A stretch of DNA of 53,777 bases from a virus: positions 1 through 53,777 of the IMG/VR virus record IMGVR_UViG_3300012944_000029, one strand, 5' to 3'. Of the stretch, positions 6,392-17,379 are shown one piece after another. A model generated the notes under the pieces. It did no database searches. It was not told the origin of the DNA and saw only the letters and a list, made by a program, of their open reading frames with translations. Position 1 is the first letter of the stretch. The number at the start of each line of letters is the position of its first letter. The position numbers were made by a program, and so were the translations under genes.

Positions 6392-7507
6392 TTAGCTGTC
6401 GCAACGATCGCGCAACGCCATCGGCGCGTCACAACGCAGGTGATTGAATGCCACTCCGCGCTCGGGGTGAACCGGCTGGCTGGCGCTTTCCAGAATCGCC
6501 CGGTGATACATGATCGTCTGGTCCGGGTTGCACACACGGTCAGGGATATTACGCAGCATGAATTTACCCGTGTAATTCACCGGGCTAAACTTGAAGTCCG
6601 GGTGCGGATTCGTGATCGTGTCCGGAATCAAGCTCGTAAACACAGTCGGGTCGAAGATGTATGACACTTCCGACGTGGCCGAATTCCAAGCCGACCGCAC
6701 GATCGCACGATTGCCCTTCGTGGCCGCCTCAATGTCGAACGGAGCAATTTCCGTGTACACGCCACCTGAGCAGGTGTAACGGATGGGGAACTCGTCGATG
6801 ATGTGGTAAAACCCGCGGTAAGTGCCTTCGACGCCATACTGGCCAAGAAGCTCCGAAGGCCGACCCCATCGGAAGTCTTGGCGAATTTCAGGGTCCTGGA
6901 ATATCAAAGCGTCGATCGTTTCCTGAGAAGCAATCAGTGTAAGCACCCCCGCCCCGTTCTGCTTGCCGAGCGCGGACATATTCGCCCCGTTCCGACGCAA
7001 CCTGACACCGTATCGGTTCAGCACGCCCTGGCTGAGCTGGGCTGTGGCGCACGACGCTGGCCACCCTTCTCCGGTCCCTTCGACATTGCCGCTCTGGCGG
7101 ATGACCACCTTAAGGGCCACCAGCCTAAGGTACTCATGCCGATACCTGATTTCCCATTCCAGCTTGGCGTATTCGGAGAGGACGCTGATGATTTTGTCGA
7201 GTTGATCGCGCAGGGCGAACACTGACCGGATTTCCTCCACGCAGAAGTCCGGCCCTTCTAGGGCTCGGCGCTGGAGTTGATATGTGCGATTGGTCGATCC
7301 GATCGCAATCTTCTGTACTGGCGGCAAACATGCGCCCCCTTCCGCGCCGCTTTCCACGGCAACATTCGTCCACGTCGGCACGGCATCGGTCGGGGCGGAG
7401 CGTTCATAAGTGAGATTCGTGAGAATTTCACCCATGCCAGCTTGCCACTGATCCCGGCGCACCAAACCGATCCAAGGCGAGGAGGGGAACACTCGATCAT
7501 AAATCAT
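6392..7507 (-). CDS. Major capsid protein
   Basis: A 371-residue protein from the first in-frame ATG. It lacks enzyme motifs. Segments such as MGEILTNLTYERSAP, YQLQRRALEGPDFC and EWEIRYRHEYLR resemble major capsid proteins I recall from environmental short-tailed phages. Family recognition is from memory and not from a search. Nineteen sense codons lie in frame upstream of the ATG (to 7564) and encode a capsid-like N-terminus (CQAIIDILARETGRFST), so the true protein probably begins upstream. The only candidate there is ATA at 7564-7562, seven bases after AAAAGG, or an exon joined by splicing. An intron-like RNA lies directly upstream. Confidence 0.75.
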   Translation of the reverse strand: MIYDRVFPSSPWIGLVRRDQWQAGMGEILTNLTYERSAPTDAVPTWTNVAVESGAEGGACLPPVQKIAIGSTNRTYQLQRRALEGPDFCVEEIRSVFALRDQLDKIISVLSEYAKLEWEIRYRHEYLRLVALKVVIRQSGNVEGTGEGWPASCATAQLSQGVLNRYGVRLRRNGANMSALGKQNGAGVLTLIASQETIDALIFQDPEIRQDFRWGRPSELLGQYGVEGTYRGFYHIIDEFPIRYTCSGGVYTEIAPFDIEAATKGNRAIVRSAWNSATSEVSYIFDPTVFTSLIPDTITNPHPDFKFSPVNYTGKFMLRNIPDRVCNPDQTIMYHRAILESASQPVHPERGVAFNHLRCDAPMALRDRCDS

Positions 7508-7561
7508 GGTCGAGAACCGCCCCGTCTCGCGTGCGAGAATGTCAATTATGGCTTGACAGCT

Positions 7562-7861
7562 TATAAGTAAACCTTTTGTTATTAACTATATACAATGAAC
7601 GCCATTAGCGTACAAGGTTGATTGTTGAGAACCGGTTTGAAGTCCGCTGCCAGGGCTTCTAACTACTTGAGCAGCGTGCTGTTTGATCGCGGTGGTAGGG
7701 CATCCACCCGTGGACCCAATTTGTTTTGCGACTCAGCTATTAGCTTAACTACTACTGAAGATTAGGTCTGTCAAACAAAACTTGCGCTTGGTCGGGAAAC
7801 AGGCCAATATCGCGGCGAGCATCAGAGCTTAAATCTGATGCCCAGCCGCTCAACACAACAA
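7562..7861 (-). ncRNA. Group I intron-like structured RNA upstream of the capsid gene
   Basis: About 300 bases without a gene. On the minus strand I can draw, in the order of a group I core: P4 GCGGC/GCCGC (7845-7849 with 7812-7816) enclosing P5 GCATCAGA/TCTGATGC (7834-7841 with 7819-7826); P6 TTGG/CCAA (7804-7807 with 7788-7791); an R-like element GTTTGACAGACCTAATC (7776-7760); P7 GACCTAAT/ATTGGGTC (7768-7761 with 7720-7713, one G-U pair that forms only in minus-strand RNA); and a P9-like hairpin GGTGG/CCACC (7708-7704 with 7695-7691). P3 and the splice sites are not clear. The adjacent HNH gene lies antisense to this RNA. A structured 5' leader is the alternative. Confidence 0.45.
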
Positions 7862-7877
7862 TGAAAGGATCATCGTC
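7812..7877 (+). repeat. Conserved leader of HNH cassette 1
   Basis: It comprises a two-stem fold (GCGGC, GA, an 8-bp hairpin, CCA, GCCGC), then ACACAACAA, six variable bases, GATCATCGT, one base and the HNH ATG. The same order and spacing precedes the second HNH gene at 15874-15934, where both stems are different in sequence but still paired. This supports a shared, structurally selected element carried with the endonuclease. Confidence 0.7.
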
Positions 7878-8312
7878 ATGCCTGCCGAACTATTGCCTGA
7901 GAATCAGCCAGAGGGAAGTCCAAAACCGCGTCACTTCAATTACGTCCACGGTCACAGCGTAAACCGCAAGATGTCCAAGACCTACAAGGCTTGGAGGAAC
8001 ATGCTCTCAAGGTGTTACAATCCGAACGATAAATGCTTTAAACATTACGGCGCGAGAGGGATCGGGGTTTGCGAGGAATGGCGTCATTGCTTCGATGCGT
8101 TCCTGACTTATGTCGGAGTGGCCCCAGCCCCGAACATGACCATGGAGAGGAAGGACAATGCCAGAAACTATGAGCCCGGGAATGTAAAATGGGCTGACCG
8201 ATGGGCGCAGGCTGGGAACAAACGGAACAATAGAATGGTCACGGTTCTCGGCGAGACTGGTCATTTCGCCAAGCCAATCCGTGGTTTAAGACGACCAGAG
8301 ATTAAACCGTAG
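7878..8312 (+). CDS. HNH homing endonuclease 1
   Basis: A 144-residue protein on the strand opposite to its neighbours. The core SKTYKAWRNMLSRCYNP, FKHYGARGIGVCEEW and MTMERKDNARNYEPGNVKW is the pattern of phage HNH/AP2-type homing endonucleases; the C-terminal NKRNNRMV region is the usual DNA-binding tail, here short. Compared with the paralogue at 15935 it lacks the N-terminal Cys-rich domain of about 65 residues. It occupies the space between the primase gene (5 bases away) and the capsid leader, so it is probably a mobile insertion. It should act by cutting uninserted alleles. Confidence 0.88.
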   Translation: MPAELLPENQPEGSPKPRHFNYVHGHSVNRKMSKTYKAWRNMLSRCYNPNDKCFKHYGARGIGVCEEWRHCFDAFLTYVGVAPAPNMTMERKDNARNYEPGNVKWADRWAQAGNKRNNRMVTVLGETGHFAKPIRGLRRPEIKP

Positions 8313-8317
8313 TCCCG

Positions 8318-9130
8318 TCAACCAGGAATCGACCAGACCAAAGATTTGATGCTCGATTCGATCAGAGCTTTTGTTCCCCCGAACTGCAAAAATTGCCGAA
8401 GGTCCTTGGCCGGTGGAACGTAAGTAACTGTTGGGACGCCAAGGCGCATGGAGATTTTCTCCGCCCCATTCAACCCCGGTGCATCGTTGTCCGCCACGAT
8501 TACGGCTTGCTGAATATGCAGGCGTTTGAACGCGAGGCGTATCTCATTCTCGCCACAATTGCAGCTTGGCCGGCCAACAGCCCAGAATCCGAGCGTCAAC
8601 GCCGCGGCACAATCAGTGGGTCCTTCGCAAACCAGCGCTGTGCAGTTGCTCTGGGTATGCGGCAGGAAGATGCCTTGACGCGAACCCGTCACAGCCCATT
8701 TTCGGCCATTGTCGGCCCGCAACCGGATGCCGCAGGGATTTCCCCATTCATCACGCATCGGGAAGGCCCAGGCGTGATGAGGCGCAGCCCATGCGGCGGT
8801 CATTGCTTCCAAGGATTCGATCGAGACGCCAAGACTCGACGCCAAGTCTTCGATCGCATCCCGAGGCGTGTCCATGGCGAATTGTTCCATGAGGAACGTT
8901 GCGTTGATTTTTGGAGGCTCAGGCTTGGGGGGTGTCAGGTTGACTGGAGCGTGATCGCCGTTGAGTGGATGCAGCCACCCGCCATTGTGGACTTCTTTCT
9001 CCGATTGAACGCGCATGCAATTTACGAACTTCTGGCCGATCGCGCACCAGTCTGGACGACCGCAAACGGGACACGGGTTATGCTTAGTAACTTTGATCCA
9101 TGGAGTCATCATCGTCATCAAGGAAACCAT
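8318..9130 (-). CDS. DNA primase (zinc finger plus TOPRIM)
   Basis: A 270-residue protein. An N-terminal zinc-binding segment CPVCGRPDWC (about residues 20-29) is followed by a linker. A TOPRIM core follows at about 165-245: LVCEGPTDCAAAL with the catalytic Glu, then VIVADNDAPG with the DxD motif. This is the layout of small phage primases of the DnaG or gp4 N-terminal type without a fused helicase. Several in-frame ATGs (9130, 9118, 9112, 9109) make the exact start uncertain. It synthesises RNA primers for phage DNA replication and probably works with the helicase encoded two genes upstream. Confidence 0.88.
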   Translation of the reverse strand: MVSLMTMMTPWIKVTKHNPCPVCGRPDWCAIGQKFVNCMRVQSEKEVHNGGWLHPLNGDHAPVNLTPPKPEPPKINATFLMEQFAMDTPRDAIEDLASSLGVSIESLEAMTAAWAAPHHAWAFPMRDEWGNPCGIRLRADNGRKWAVTGSRQGIFLPHTQSNCTALVCEGPTDCAAALTLGFWAVGRPSCNCGENEIRLAFKRLHIQQAVIVADNDAPGLNGAEKISMRLGVPTVTYVPPAKDLRQFLQFGGTKALIESSIKSLVWSIPG

Positions 9131-14467: not shown

Positions 14468-15120
14468 GCGGGGTGTGTGAAATTTACATCGTCGATTGCC
14501 GCGTCCAGCGCGTCGGGCCGCCGGAAAGCGCACCATCCATTTCGGTCGTCCAGATCATCAGCGATGACGCGCCATCCCTTTTCGATGAGCAGATTTCGGT
14601 TTCTGACGTTCTTGTGCGCACGCGCAGGATGCGTATCATCCAACGCGATTATGTCGCATCTCGGCAGCAGGATGTCCATCTCAGCACTGCTCGACCATTC
14701 CCCACCGTCGAGCAGGAGCAAGTCGATATGCATCGGTAAATCAGCCAAGACATTCGGCGCAGCCATGAACTGGCCACGGAGAAAGTCGTATCCGAGCGGA
14801 CCGCGCATCTCCTCACCACCCGGGTGTGCGTAAGGCTCAAAGCCATCGTCTGGTGCGATCCTGCCACAAAGGAGCGTGATCTGATCGTAACCTGCCCAGG
14901 CTCGTAACGCCTCATCAAAGAGGCCCATGTCAATCTCGACCGAGACCAAGCGCTGGTCGGGAAGCTCGATGCCCATGGCGAGGCACCGCGTGGACCCTTG
15001 GCCATGCCAGGTTCCAAGCTCGACGATCGTTTCGGCCTTCCGGGCCAGTCCCGTGAGGAGATCGCCGAATGGCGTGCCTTCGCAGATTTGGCCTAAGGAC
15101 GATACGGTTTCGTTTTGCAT
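14464..15120 (-). CDS. SAM-dependent methyltransferase (CmcI/FkbM-like)
   Basis: A 218-residue class I methyltransferase fold from the ATG at 15120. Motif I is IVELGTWHGQGST, then VSVEID at the end of strand 2, LLLLDGGEW, and IIALDDTHPA. The pattern is that of small-molecule or sugar O-methyltransferases of the CmcI/TylF group rather than DNA methylases (no DPPY or PC motif). It lies at the end of a run of glycosyltransferase genes and overlaps one by 28 bases, so it may methylate the glycan they build. Confidence 0.75.
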   Translation of the reverse strand: MQNETVSSLGQICEGTPFGDLLTGLARKAETIVELGTWHGQGSTRCLAMGIELPDQRLVSVEIDMGLFDEALRAWAGYDQITLLCGRIAPDDGFEPYAHPGGEEMRGPLGYDFLRGQFMAAPNVLADLPMHIDLLLLDGGEWSSSAEMDILLPRCDIIALDDTHPARAHKNVRNRNLLIEKGWRVIADDLDDRNGWCAFRRPDALDAAIDDVNFTHPA

Positions 15121-15830
15121 GAGTTGACTTCTGTGTAAATCCGGGCGAATGCTTCGGTCGGTTTCACGACCATAGGCCATGTCAACATCTCGTTCCAGCC
15201 GTACTGATCATGGTCACGTCCAATATGGATTGGGTCCTTGAAGTCTGGCCAAGGATTCCACCAACGCCCGCCGCGGAAAATATATCCCATTTCCTGGTCC
15301 CATACAGGCGTTATCTCTTCTTCGGGATCGTGTAGGTTTGGATACTGGCGATAATGAAGCAATCGGCACACCGCTGAGTGTTTCATCAGAGTTAACGGAC
15401 CTTCGGGATTTCCACAGGTCTGCGAGCAACACAGAATCTCGGGGCGATCCCAAAATTCCCGGATGAGCGAATCTAAATTGATATCACCAATAAAAGCATC
15501 ATGATCATAATGAATCAGGATATCCCATTCAGTCCCGCGATTAGCCGCAAATGCAAACCCGGCAGTGAATGCCGCTTTGCCATAATGCCGCCGATGGCCA
15601 GAAAATTCGGAGTCCCATTCGACACCAGCATTTATTACTGGAACGTCTGGAATCGGATTAAATGCGGGGTCGGAATATGTGCCGCTTGAGGCGAATAATC
15701 CAATTGGAGAAAAAAGTCTCTCAGCGCGTTCCTTCCACGCCACTAAGCCGCACATTCCGTTATGGTGGAGGTTCGCCATTTCTTTGGTTCTCCAATAGGC
15801 TACTGAGAACACTAACAGTCTGTGAGTCAC
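15093..15830 (-). CDS. Glycosyltransferase, GT-A like
   Basis: A 245-residue protein. ILIHYDHDAFIG (about residues 103-114) carries a DxD-type metal site, and the N-terminal strand LLVFSVAYW and later WDQEMGYIF fit a GT-A fold. The start chosen is GTG; the first ~8 codons may be altered because the region just upstream was disrupted by the HNH cassette that begins at 15935. It belongs to the glycan island and may modify host surface, virion or DNA sugars. Substrate unknown. Confidence 0.65.
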   Translation of the reverse strand: MTHRLLVFSVAYWRTKEMANLHHNGMCGLVAWKERAERLFSPIGLFASSGTYSDPAFNPIPDVPVINAGVEWDSEFSGHRRHYGKAAFTAGFAFAANRGTEWDILIHYDHDAFIGDINLDSLIREFWDRPEILCCSQTCGNPEGPLTLMKHSAVCRLLHYRQYPNLHDPEEEITPVWDQEMGYIFRGGRWWNPWPDFKDPIHIGRDHDQYGWNEMLTWPMVVKPTEAFARIYTEVNSCKTKPYRP

Positions 15831-15873
15831 ATTATTGGATTGCAGTTCCCGAAGAGGTCCGTAAGATGGTTGC

Positions 15874-15934
15874 AGTGAGCGCCGGTTGTCGCCGGACGCC
15901 CACCACTTGACACAACAAAGTTGCGATCATCGTT
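15874..15934 (+). repeat. Conserved leader of HNH cassette 2
   Basis: Outer stem AGTG/CACT (15874-15877 with 15904-15907) encloses hairpin GCGCCGG/CCGGaCGC (15879-15885 with 15892-15899). These are followed by ACACAACAA, six variable bases, GATCATCGT, one base and the HNH ATG. Layout and spacing match 7812-7877, but stem sequences are replaced by other paired sequences. Confidence 0.7.
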
Positions 15935-16585
15935 ATGCCCAATGAAGTCTTGCCTGTCGGTTCTGTTTTTTCCAGATTAAAAGTCATCTCGGCTGCCCCG
16001 CCCATGGTATATCCGAGTGGCCAAGTCGGGGCCAGGAGCGTTTGCGTGTGCGATTGCGGAAAGGAACACATCGTGACAAATAACAACCTCAAACGGGGTG
16101 CTGTTCGTTCATGCGGGTGCCTAGGAGTTGAAATGAGGCAGAAGTCCAATTTTAAACATGGACATTCTAGGGGTGGCCATGTTTCCAAAGCTATGAGGGT
16201 TTGGCGCCATATGATTGAGCGTTGTTGCAATCCCCATTCCATCAATTTCGAGCGTTATGGAGCCAGGGGAATTACGGTCTGTGATCGTTGGAAGGTGTTC
16301 ACTAATTGGCTTGAAGATATGGGAGAGCCTCCCGATGGGCTTACCTTGGAGAGAATCAAGAATGACGGCAACTATGAACCCGCAAACGTGAAGTGGGATA
16401 CGATTAAAAATCAATGCCGGAATAAGCGTAACAATGTCATGGTCACCATTGGTGGAGTTACCACTACGCTGATTGAGATTTGCGAACGATTTGGAAAGCC
16501 TATTTCCCTCGCAAGGAAGAGACTGAGGAAAGGATGGCCCGCTGATCGAGCCATTTTCGAAAAGAGTCGGAGAGATCATCATTGA
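15935..16585 (+). CDS. HNH homing endonuclease 2
   Basis: A 216-residue protein inserted against the direction of the glycan operon. Residues about 1-75 are a Cys-rich domain (CVCDCGKEH, SCGCLG) found in longer phage HNH proteins. The HNH core follows (SKAMRVWRHMIERCCNP, FERYGARGITVCDRW, LTLERIKNDGNYEPANVKW). The C-terminus (NKRNNVMV, then KPISLARKRLRKGW) is a DNA-binding tail. It is paralogous to the gene at 7878. Its last codons overlap the 3' end of a glycosyltransferase gene by 7 bases, consistent with insertion at or into that gene. Confidence 0.9.
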   Translation: MPNEVLPVGSVFSRLKVISAAPPMVYPSGQVGARSVCVCDCGKEHIVTNNNLKRGAVRSCGCLGVEMRQKSNFKHGHSRGGHVSKAMRVWRHMIERCCNPHSINFERYGARGITVCDRWKVFTNWLEDMGEPPDGLTLERIKNDGNYEPANVKWDTIKNQCRNKRNNVMVTIGGVTTTLIEICERFGKPISLARKRLRKGWPADRAIFEKSRRDHH

Positions 16586-17379
16586 ACACGATCCACGAGA
16601 CACTCCTCATCCACGAAAGGGAAGTAATCCTTCAGCTTCACGGGGAACTTCGTGACGTTTTGAAGTGCACGCCATTTGTCCACGAGCCCGGTGTAAAGAT
16701 GGCCCTTGGGGTTATTGTGGCTGCCGTAATATTCCTGCTTGAATCTCACCTGAGCCTCTGTGGCGTAGGCGAAATGGTCGAATACGATGCCTTCCGATTC
16801 CGTCTCGGCATGCGTGAATGGATTCAGCGTCAATCCATCAATGACCGGTGGCTCATGTCTTTCAAAGCGCATACCCGGGACAAAGCGCCAGGCTCTCAAC
16901 CACTCGTACTCAGTGTGGTTACCAAAGCCGTTGCGCGTGGCAATAACGAGATCGCGTCCGACGAAATAGCGACAGTAAAAGTACGCGGAGTTCTTCGATC
17001 TGTCGCGCTGAAACATCGCCACCAACGCCTCAATCTGCTCAGCGGTCCAACACTCGTCACTATCGACTTGGAGGAGAATTGTGGGTTCATAAATTGTCTC
17101 CAGAATTCGGTTGAACATGGCCGCTTTCCCTGGCCATTCGGATCGCCTGAACACATGCACACGCGAGTCGAAAGCACGCACGGAATCCAGGTATTCTGTC
17201 GTGCCGTCCTGAGACAGGCGCGGGGCCATCTTCGAGACCCATGATGTGTCCAACACAGGCGCGGCGACACCTTCCGCCACGAGCCATTCCCAGTCGCTCT
17301 TGAGCTTGCGAAATTCTGGGTAATGGAGCGTCACGAAGGGCATGGCGTCGAGGGCGATCGTTACGATGGTGATTTTCAT
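16579..17379 (-). CDS. Glycosyltransferase, GT2-like
   Basis: A 266-residue protein. N-terminal KITIVTIALDAMPFV and ILLQVDSDECW with a DxD metal site at about residues 101-106 are typical of GT-A enzymes of family 2. ATGA overlap with the upstream gene. The stop lies inside the end of the HNH gene, so the original C-terminus may have been longer. It is part of the glycan island. Acceptor and donor are unknown. Confidence 0.75.
   Translation of the reverse strand: MKITIVTIALDAMPFVTLHYPEFRKLKSDWEWLVAEGVAAPVLDTSWVSKMAPRLSQDGTTEYLDSVRAFDSRVHVFRRSEWPGKAAMFNRILETIYEPTILLQVDSDECWTAEQIEALVAMFQRDRSKNSAYFYCRYFVGRDLVIATRNGFGNHTEYEWLRAWRFVPGMRFERHEPPVIDGLTLNPFTHAETESEGIVFDHFAYATEAQVRFKQEYYGSHNNPKGHLYTGLVDKWRALQNVTKFPVKLKDYFPFVDEECLVDRVQ

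Follow-up and report, generated by a model that had tools for sequence, protein, structure and literature searches.

The closest described counterparts of the elements analysed here are two cis-encoded antisense RNAs, SymR and PtaRNA1. SymR, the RNA of the E. coli type I system SymE/SymR (RF01809), is ~77 nt long and is transcribed from a promoter within the symE ORF. Its sequence is fully complementary to the symE mRNA 5' end, ribosome-binding site and start codon included; two strong hairpins are predicted for it, and it acts as a translational repressor (PMC1891008). PtaRNA1 (RF01811) accompanies ptaRNA1_toxin genes (PF12703). In another type I system, RalR/RalA of the rac prophage, a small RNA serves as the antitoxin to a DNase (PMC4147584). 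Among T4-type homing endonucleases, I-TevI, segB and mobE, as well as the hairpin before seg43(25), provide examples of translational control by RNA structure, and segD is an antisense-inserted homing endonuclease gene; the known brakes on homing endonucleases comprise mRNA hairpins, transcript processing, late promoters and autorepression (PMC2988022).

Upstream of two HNH endonuclease genes of a virus record, and likewise before HNH genes of some twenty other phage records, we found a leader that resembles these systems in several respects. As in SymE/SymR, two strong hairpins within ~70–80 nt are selected on the antisense strand, the predicted RNA covers the ribosome-binding site and the start codon and is complementary to them as a cis-encoded RNA, and the best phage leaders match the symR model on the antisense strand. 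The protein, however, is an HNH endonuclease and not an AbrB-fold toxin, and the phage scores stay below the symR gathering score. PtaRNA1 likewise lies opposite the start site and shares the fold, whereas its protein is a different one and the phage leaders again score below the gathering threshold. RalR/RalA, compared by description, also places a prophage-borne DNA-cutting protein under a small RNA, but the reported pairing site of RalA lies inside the coding sequence of ralR, and Hfq is reportedly required (PMC4147584). In the T4-type systems the hairpin lies within the mRNA, whereas the conserved structure described here resides in an antisense RNA. We consider it likely that each leader is a SymR/PtaRNA1-type cis-encoded antisense RNA gene within the HNH cassette, which would brake translation of the endonuclease.

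The window, that is the whole stretch of DNA analysed, corresponds to a virus record 53,777 bases long. For most of the large ORFs tested no PHROG family was matched, and neither the primase nor one large ORF had a close relative in IMG/VR or among named phages; judging by its proteins, the record appears to represent a little-known phage lineage. The two HNH proteins belong to common PHROG families of HNH endonucleases, which identify both as HNH homing endonucleases by sequence: HNH1 (7878..8312, plus strand, 144 aa) to PHROG 3377 (E 2e-34) and HNH2 (15935..16585, plus strand, 216 aa) to PHROG 374 (E 8e-54). According to the ORF list both genes lie on the plus strand amid minus-strand genes, HNH1 between the ORFs 6392-7507 and 8318-9130, and HNH2 between 15093-15830 and 16579-17379. 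The proteins share 44% identity over 126 aa; across the aligned codons, identity is 49% overall and 30% at third positions, which are saturated. HNH1 is without the N-terminal domain of HNH2, a zinc-ribbon-like part, and without most of its C-terminal part, and retains the invariant core residues of the family alignment. No recognisable Shine-Dalgarno site precedes HNH2. A stretch of some 290 bases (7508-7796) that contains no listed long gene and matched no RNA family lies 5' of the first cassette and is not shared by the second.

Both genes are preceded, as the earlier note had described, by the same order of elements, namely a stem, a hairpin and ACACAACAA-N6-GATCATCGT-N-ATGCC. The last of these occupies 7853-7882 and 15910-15939, with no third site in the record (none expected in shuffled sequences). 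The likeness begins at the outer stem (7812 and 15872, respectively), further upstream nothing is common to the two cassettes, and of all DNA matches between them the leader gives the best (63 bp, 73% identical, E 5e-5). While both nine-base blocks are identical, the two leaders agree at only one of the six spacer bases and have different hairpins. The preservation of the leader despite saturated third positions, together with these differences, points to selection and not to mere recent copying; the claim of conservation beyond shared descent is thus confirmed, with 73% identity over 63 bp against 30% at third codon positions. The description of the stems as completely different in sequence was slightly overstated: pairing is indeed kept with changed bases, but some stem positions are identical. 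Folded as the sense strand, hairpin 1 reaches -23 kcal/mol (z -5.4) and hairpin 2 is weaker (z -1.2). The leader as a coding sequence in frame with the ATG was rejected, stop codons being present at 7836 and 15908 and a start codon being absent.

The family of leaders was assembled by fetching relatives of the HNH genes and reading their upstream sequences, where the seed leaders were first picked out visually and from the resemblance of their 3' flanks. In all, 18 homologous leaders were found upstream of related HNH genes in IMG/VR phages, with the common layout of a TGCTATAAT-like element, GCG, a GC-rich hairpin, CACTTGACACAGCAACCTTG, GGAGGTCGCC and ATG. Most relatives of the HNH family lack the leader (more than 140 examined). 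A covariance model of 14 members aligned without structure guidance (R1) recovered independent members, specifically L119, both tandem cassettes of L102, and L194, a second copy within the L108 record (80.5 bits). A sense model of 18 members (R2) and an antisense model (R3) were both built without the window sequence. R2 added L046, L044, L065, L124 and the Pseudanabaena phage Pam5 (L021), whose match is weaker but positionally exact; the gene after the leader encodes an HNH protein in all of these except L124. In the latter (L124:1034-2010), the leader is followed by a 121-aa ORF that has no Pfam match and whose end overlaps the start of an HNH gene, and the two may constitute a two-gene module. 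Two further arrangements were observed among the relatives: tandem HNH cassettes with one leader each, located antisense beside a major-capsid-like gene (L102:560-1960), and a group I intron (L129:3004-3315, minus strand; Rfam, 53 bits) that lies ~1 kb downstream of an HNH gene with a leader. The many loci in IMG/VR phages where the leader stands next to other HNH genes bear out the proposal that it accompanies the endonuclease. Searches for the exact leader motif in IMG/VR and GTDB contigs gave only coincidences within coding sequences (e.g., HNKFMIIVM of a coxB-like gene), and BLASTN of the leaders and of their consensus against named phages gave only chance matches.

The helices of the family covary strongly. 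In the 14-member sense alignment both sides have changed in 11/11 pairs of the large helix, and 86.9% of its cells pair, compared to 28–41% when one side is slid along the other. Aligned as the antisense strand, 93.9% of cells are paired (34–45% with the partner slid), compensatory changes occur at 17/25 pairs, and there are 63 double-change cells against 16.2 in shuffles. The covariance-model check proposed by the earlier note therefore came out positive, and its view that selection acts on nucleic-acid structure, with compensated stems, holds across the family.

Covariation of this kind would also be expected if the leader acted as a sense 5' UTR, in which a terminal hairpin stabilises the HNH mRNA, a second hairpin masks the Shine-Dalgarno site, and the antisense strand merely mirrors them. 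A sense promoter followed by a 5'-terminal hairpin and an SD-masking hairpin was in fact our first model. The sense alignment has 87.4% of its cells paired, RNAalifold finds both hairpins unaided in the 18-member sense alignment, the second pairing with the SD, and translational control by mRNA hairpins has precedents among T4 homing endonucleases (PMC2988022). The model was displaced by the types of mismatches and was kept as a rival. In the large helix read as sense, the unpaired cells comprise 26 A.C and two others, whereas G.U occurs in only three cells (p 1.5e-5). Since the complement of an A.C mismatch is a G.U wobble, this pattern indicates that the structure was selected on the opposite strand. 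On the antisense reading, where the helices are longer (14 and 11 bp), both helices together contain 88 G.U against 11 A.C (p 4.5e-16); the count from the sense helix is the less biased of the two, because it was from the antisense reading that the longer helices were defined. In addition, the antisense fold is more stable than the sense fold in 25/25 leaders. The sense 5' UTR accounts for the covariation and leaves the mismatch types unexplained, and we regard it as improbable. A structured conserved RNA is predicted on the strand opposite the HNH genes; the earlier note was right that the leader is a selected structure, and it missed that the conserved structure lies on that strand.

At the window loci, the antisense model outlines two such RNAs. 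Antisense RNA 1 (7797..7888, minus strand) and antisense RNA 2 (15862..15945, minus strand) are predicted two-hairpin RNAs opposite the 5' region and the start codon of HNH1 and HNH2, respectively, each defined by a full-length R3 match. Antisense RNA 1 folds into two hairpins at -37.1 kcal/mol (z -6.3; sense strand z -4.6), and antisense RNA 2 folds at -30.7 kcal/mol (z -4.5; sense strand z -1.8). The first stem-loop of antisense RNA 1 (CAUGACGAUGA / UCAUUGUUGUG; 7854..7880, minus strand), predicted by folding, has a homologous helix in 18 relatives with 88.7% of cells paired. In leader 1, the ACACAACAA and GATCATCGT blocks are its 11-bp arms and most of the six variable bases form its loop; this second stem-loop of the leader, made by the constant blocks, needs the antisense strand to form properly. 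For leader 2, the fold of lowest energy contains a shorter alternative to this stem, and by inspection eight homologous outer pairs are still possible. The second stem-loop of antisense RNA 1 (GCGGC-hairpin-GCCGC; 7812..7849, minus strand), also predicted by folding, is foldable in the sense strand too, and its homologue in the family has 98.0% of cells paired, with both sides changed in 13/14 pairs.

Both models, for which the E-values are rough, place the window copies in the family. When R2 was applied to every position of the window on both strands, 7801-7880 and 15863-15937 ranked first and second, both ending on ATG and both scoring 22.9 bits (approximate E 1.2e-4 and 1.3e-4), and the next match reached 11.9 bits. 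R3 gave 29.3 bits to each window leader (approximate E 8.4e-7 for leader 1 and 8.2e-7 for leader 2) and 9.2 to the next best match, and its matches cover the ATG of both HNH genes, as they do in the relatives. The window copies have diverged, with 23 bits in R2 against more than 60 for the members from which that model was built.

Promoter-like sequences are enriched on both strands of the leader-bearing loci. By comparison with a control of 143 leaderless HNH relatives, these loci have better sense -10/-35 matches upstream (p 3e-9), and the antisense -10/-35-like score inside the first codons is also higher (p 3e-6), the individual sites being weak. In the sense direction there is an extended -10 at a fitting distance, a point that would equally suit a sense 5' UTR. 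The window copies carry weak promoter-like elements on both strands. For the HNH1 transcript, the R2 alignment places a weak -10-like CAATAT (7805..7810, plus strand) at the position homologous to TGCTATAAT of the relatives, and for the HNH2 transcript there is a -10-like TAAGAT (15862..15867, plus strand), a hexamer identical in the relative L106; a consensus scan called no sigma-70 site for either of these elements. Leader-bearing HNH genes are also biased in orientation: 11/19 are antisense to both neighbours, compared to 21/147 leaderless HNH genes (p 7e-5), a count based on crude ORF calls without annotation and on sets in which the relatives are not independent. HNH1 was miscalled in this count, its neighbours being on the opposite strand in the ORF list, and Pam5 is an exception to the antisense orientation. 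The downstream gene is convergent in 15/19 leader-bearing HNH loci.

Rfam models of known antitoxin RNAs also match several of the phage leaders, always on the antisense strand, which further argues against a sense 5' UTR. Among the phage leaders, symR was matched by L129 (E 6e-5) and L179 (E 6e-4) and PtaRNA1 by L148 (E 1e-4), and other phage leaders gave weaker matches to these models at the leader. With 23–44 bits against gathering thresholds of 61 (RF01809) and 47 (RF01811), the phage leaders should be viewed as relatives or look-alikes of SymR and PtaRNA1 and not as members of these families as curated. A FinP match of L108 probably reflects a general two-hairpin resemblance. Within the window, Rfam at the gathering threshold gave nothing, and a search of 7480-8340 at E up to 5 likewise gave nothing, so leader 1 has no match of its own.

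The antisense RNA proposed here would act in the following way. From a promoter just upstream, an HNH mRNA would start near the base of the large hairpin, and an opposite-strand promoter within the first HNH codons would produce an RNA of about 70–80 nt. This RNA would fold into two strong hairpins. Its full complementarity to the mRNA 5' end would take in the ribosome-binding region and the start codon, and its pairing with the mRNA would block translation, so that the endonuclease level would stay low. The cassette, consisting of the antisense RNA and the gene, would be mobile as a unit, usually in an orientation opposite to that of the genes beside it. Homing endonuclease genes must stay at a dose that the phage tolerates, and such a tolerable dose would be the selective reason for the leader. 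The regulatory role that the earlier note listed among its options is supported in the form of a predicted SymR/PtaRNA1-like antisense RNA.

Two other readings were considered. The conserved blocks might be a DNA operator through which the HNH protein represses its own gene, as I-TevI does (PMC2988022), or the remnant of a homing site, and the bipartite 9-6-9 layout just 5' of the start codon in the window pair would suit such a role; across the family, though, the arm sequences vary while their pairing stays, which is unexpected for a DNA operator, and the same architecture precedes non-HNH toxins, making this reading highly improbable. HNH genes often reside in introns, but the further option of an intron remnant (group I or II) or another ribozyme merits hardly any credence, as no tool result speaks for it, no Rfam intron match was obtained on the window leaders or on those of the relatives, and the cassettes are intergenic and mostly antisense to the flanking genes.

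An antisense RNA gene of the SymR/PtaRNA1 type in these cassettes would add a diffusible, cassette-borne RNA to the known brakes on homing endonucleases and would link homing endonucleases with bacterial type I toxin-antitoxin systems. Searches of open-access titles and abstracts returned no such report, which is weak evidence of novelty, subscription papers being mostly outside that scope. A bolder extension, conceivable though rather doubtful, is that this family of phage HNH endonucleases represents genuine type I toxin-antitoxin modules, with the leader shared and swapped among SymE, ptaRNA1-type and HNH proteins. If so, an unrepressed endonuclease would harm hosts or competing phages that lack the module, the antisense RNA would provide immunity and addiction, and a homing gene would spread by poison-antidote behaviour besides homing.

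Matches of the leader model extend to bacterial genomes. In 398 Pseudomonadota genomes, R1 found nothing at E 1e-4, and R2 at E 0.01 gave matches in 23 genomes (the E-values being rough), several of which are true loci, others resembling GC-rich palindromes or chance matches. By Pfam, two of the bacterial loci precede SymE toxins (PF08845) and one precedes a ptaRNA1_toxin (PF12703). The opposite strand of these loci is recognised by Rfam as PtaRNA1 (89.1 bits, above the gathering score) and symR (47.6 and 36.1 bits, below it), and R3 scores them at 35–57 bits; one, L216, is a genuine PtaRNA1 locus recovered by the leader model. Together with the L124 ORF, the bacterial copies before non-HNH genes demonstrate that the element is not exclusive to HNH genes. 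The covariance model provides a means to locate such loci, including those with unassigned small bacterial ORFs as candidate type I toxins. The same bacterial antisense-RNA architecture was observed before small ORFs at L213:1495-1588, L214:1493-1585 and 46-136, L219:1495-1593 and L235:1495-1594. The ORFs at these loci encode proteins of 77, 101 and 28 aa, of which neither the 77-aa nor the 101-aa product matches Pfam, and the loci are candidates for new type I toxin-antitoxin loci.
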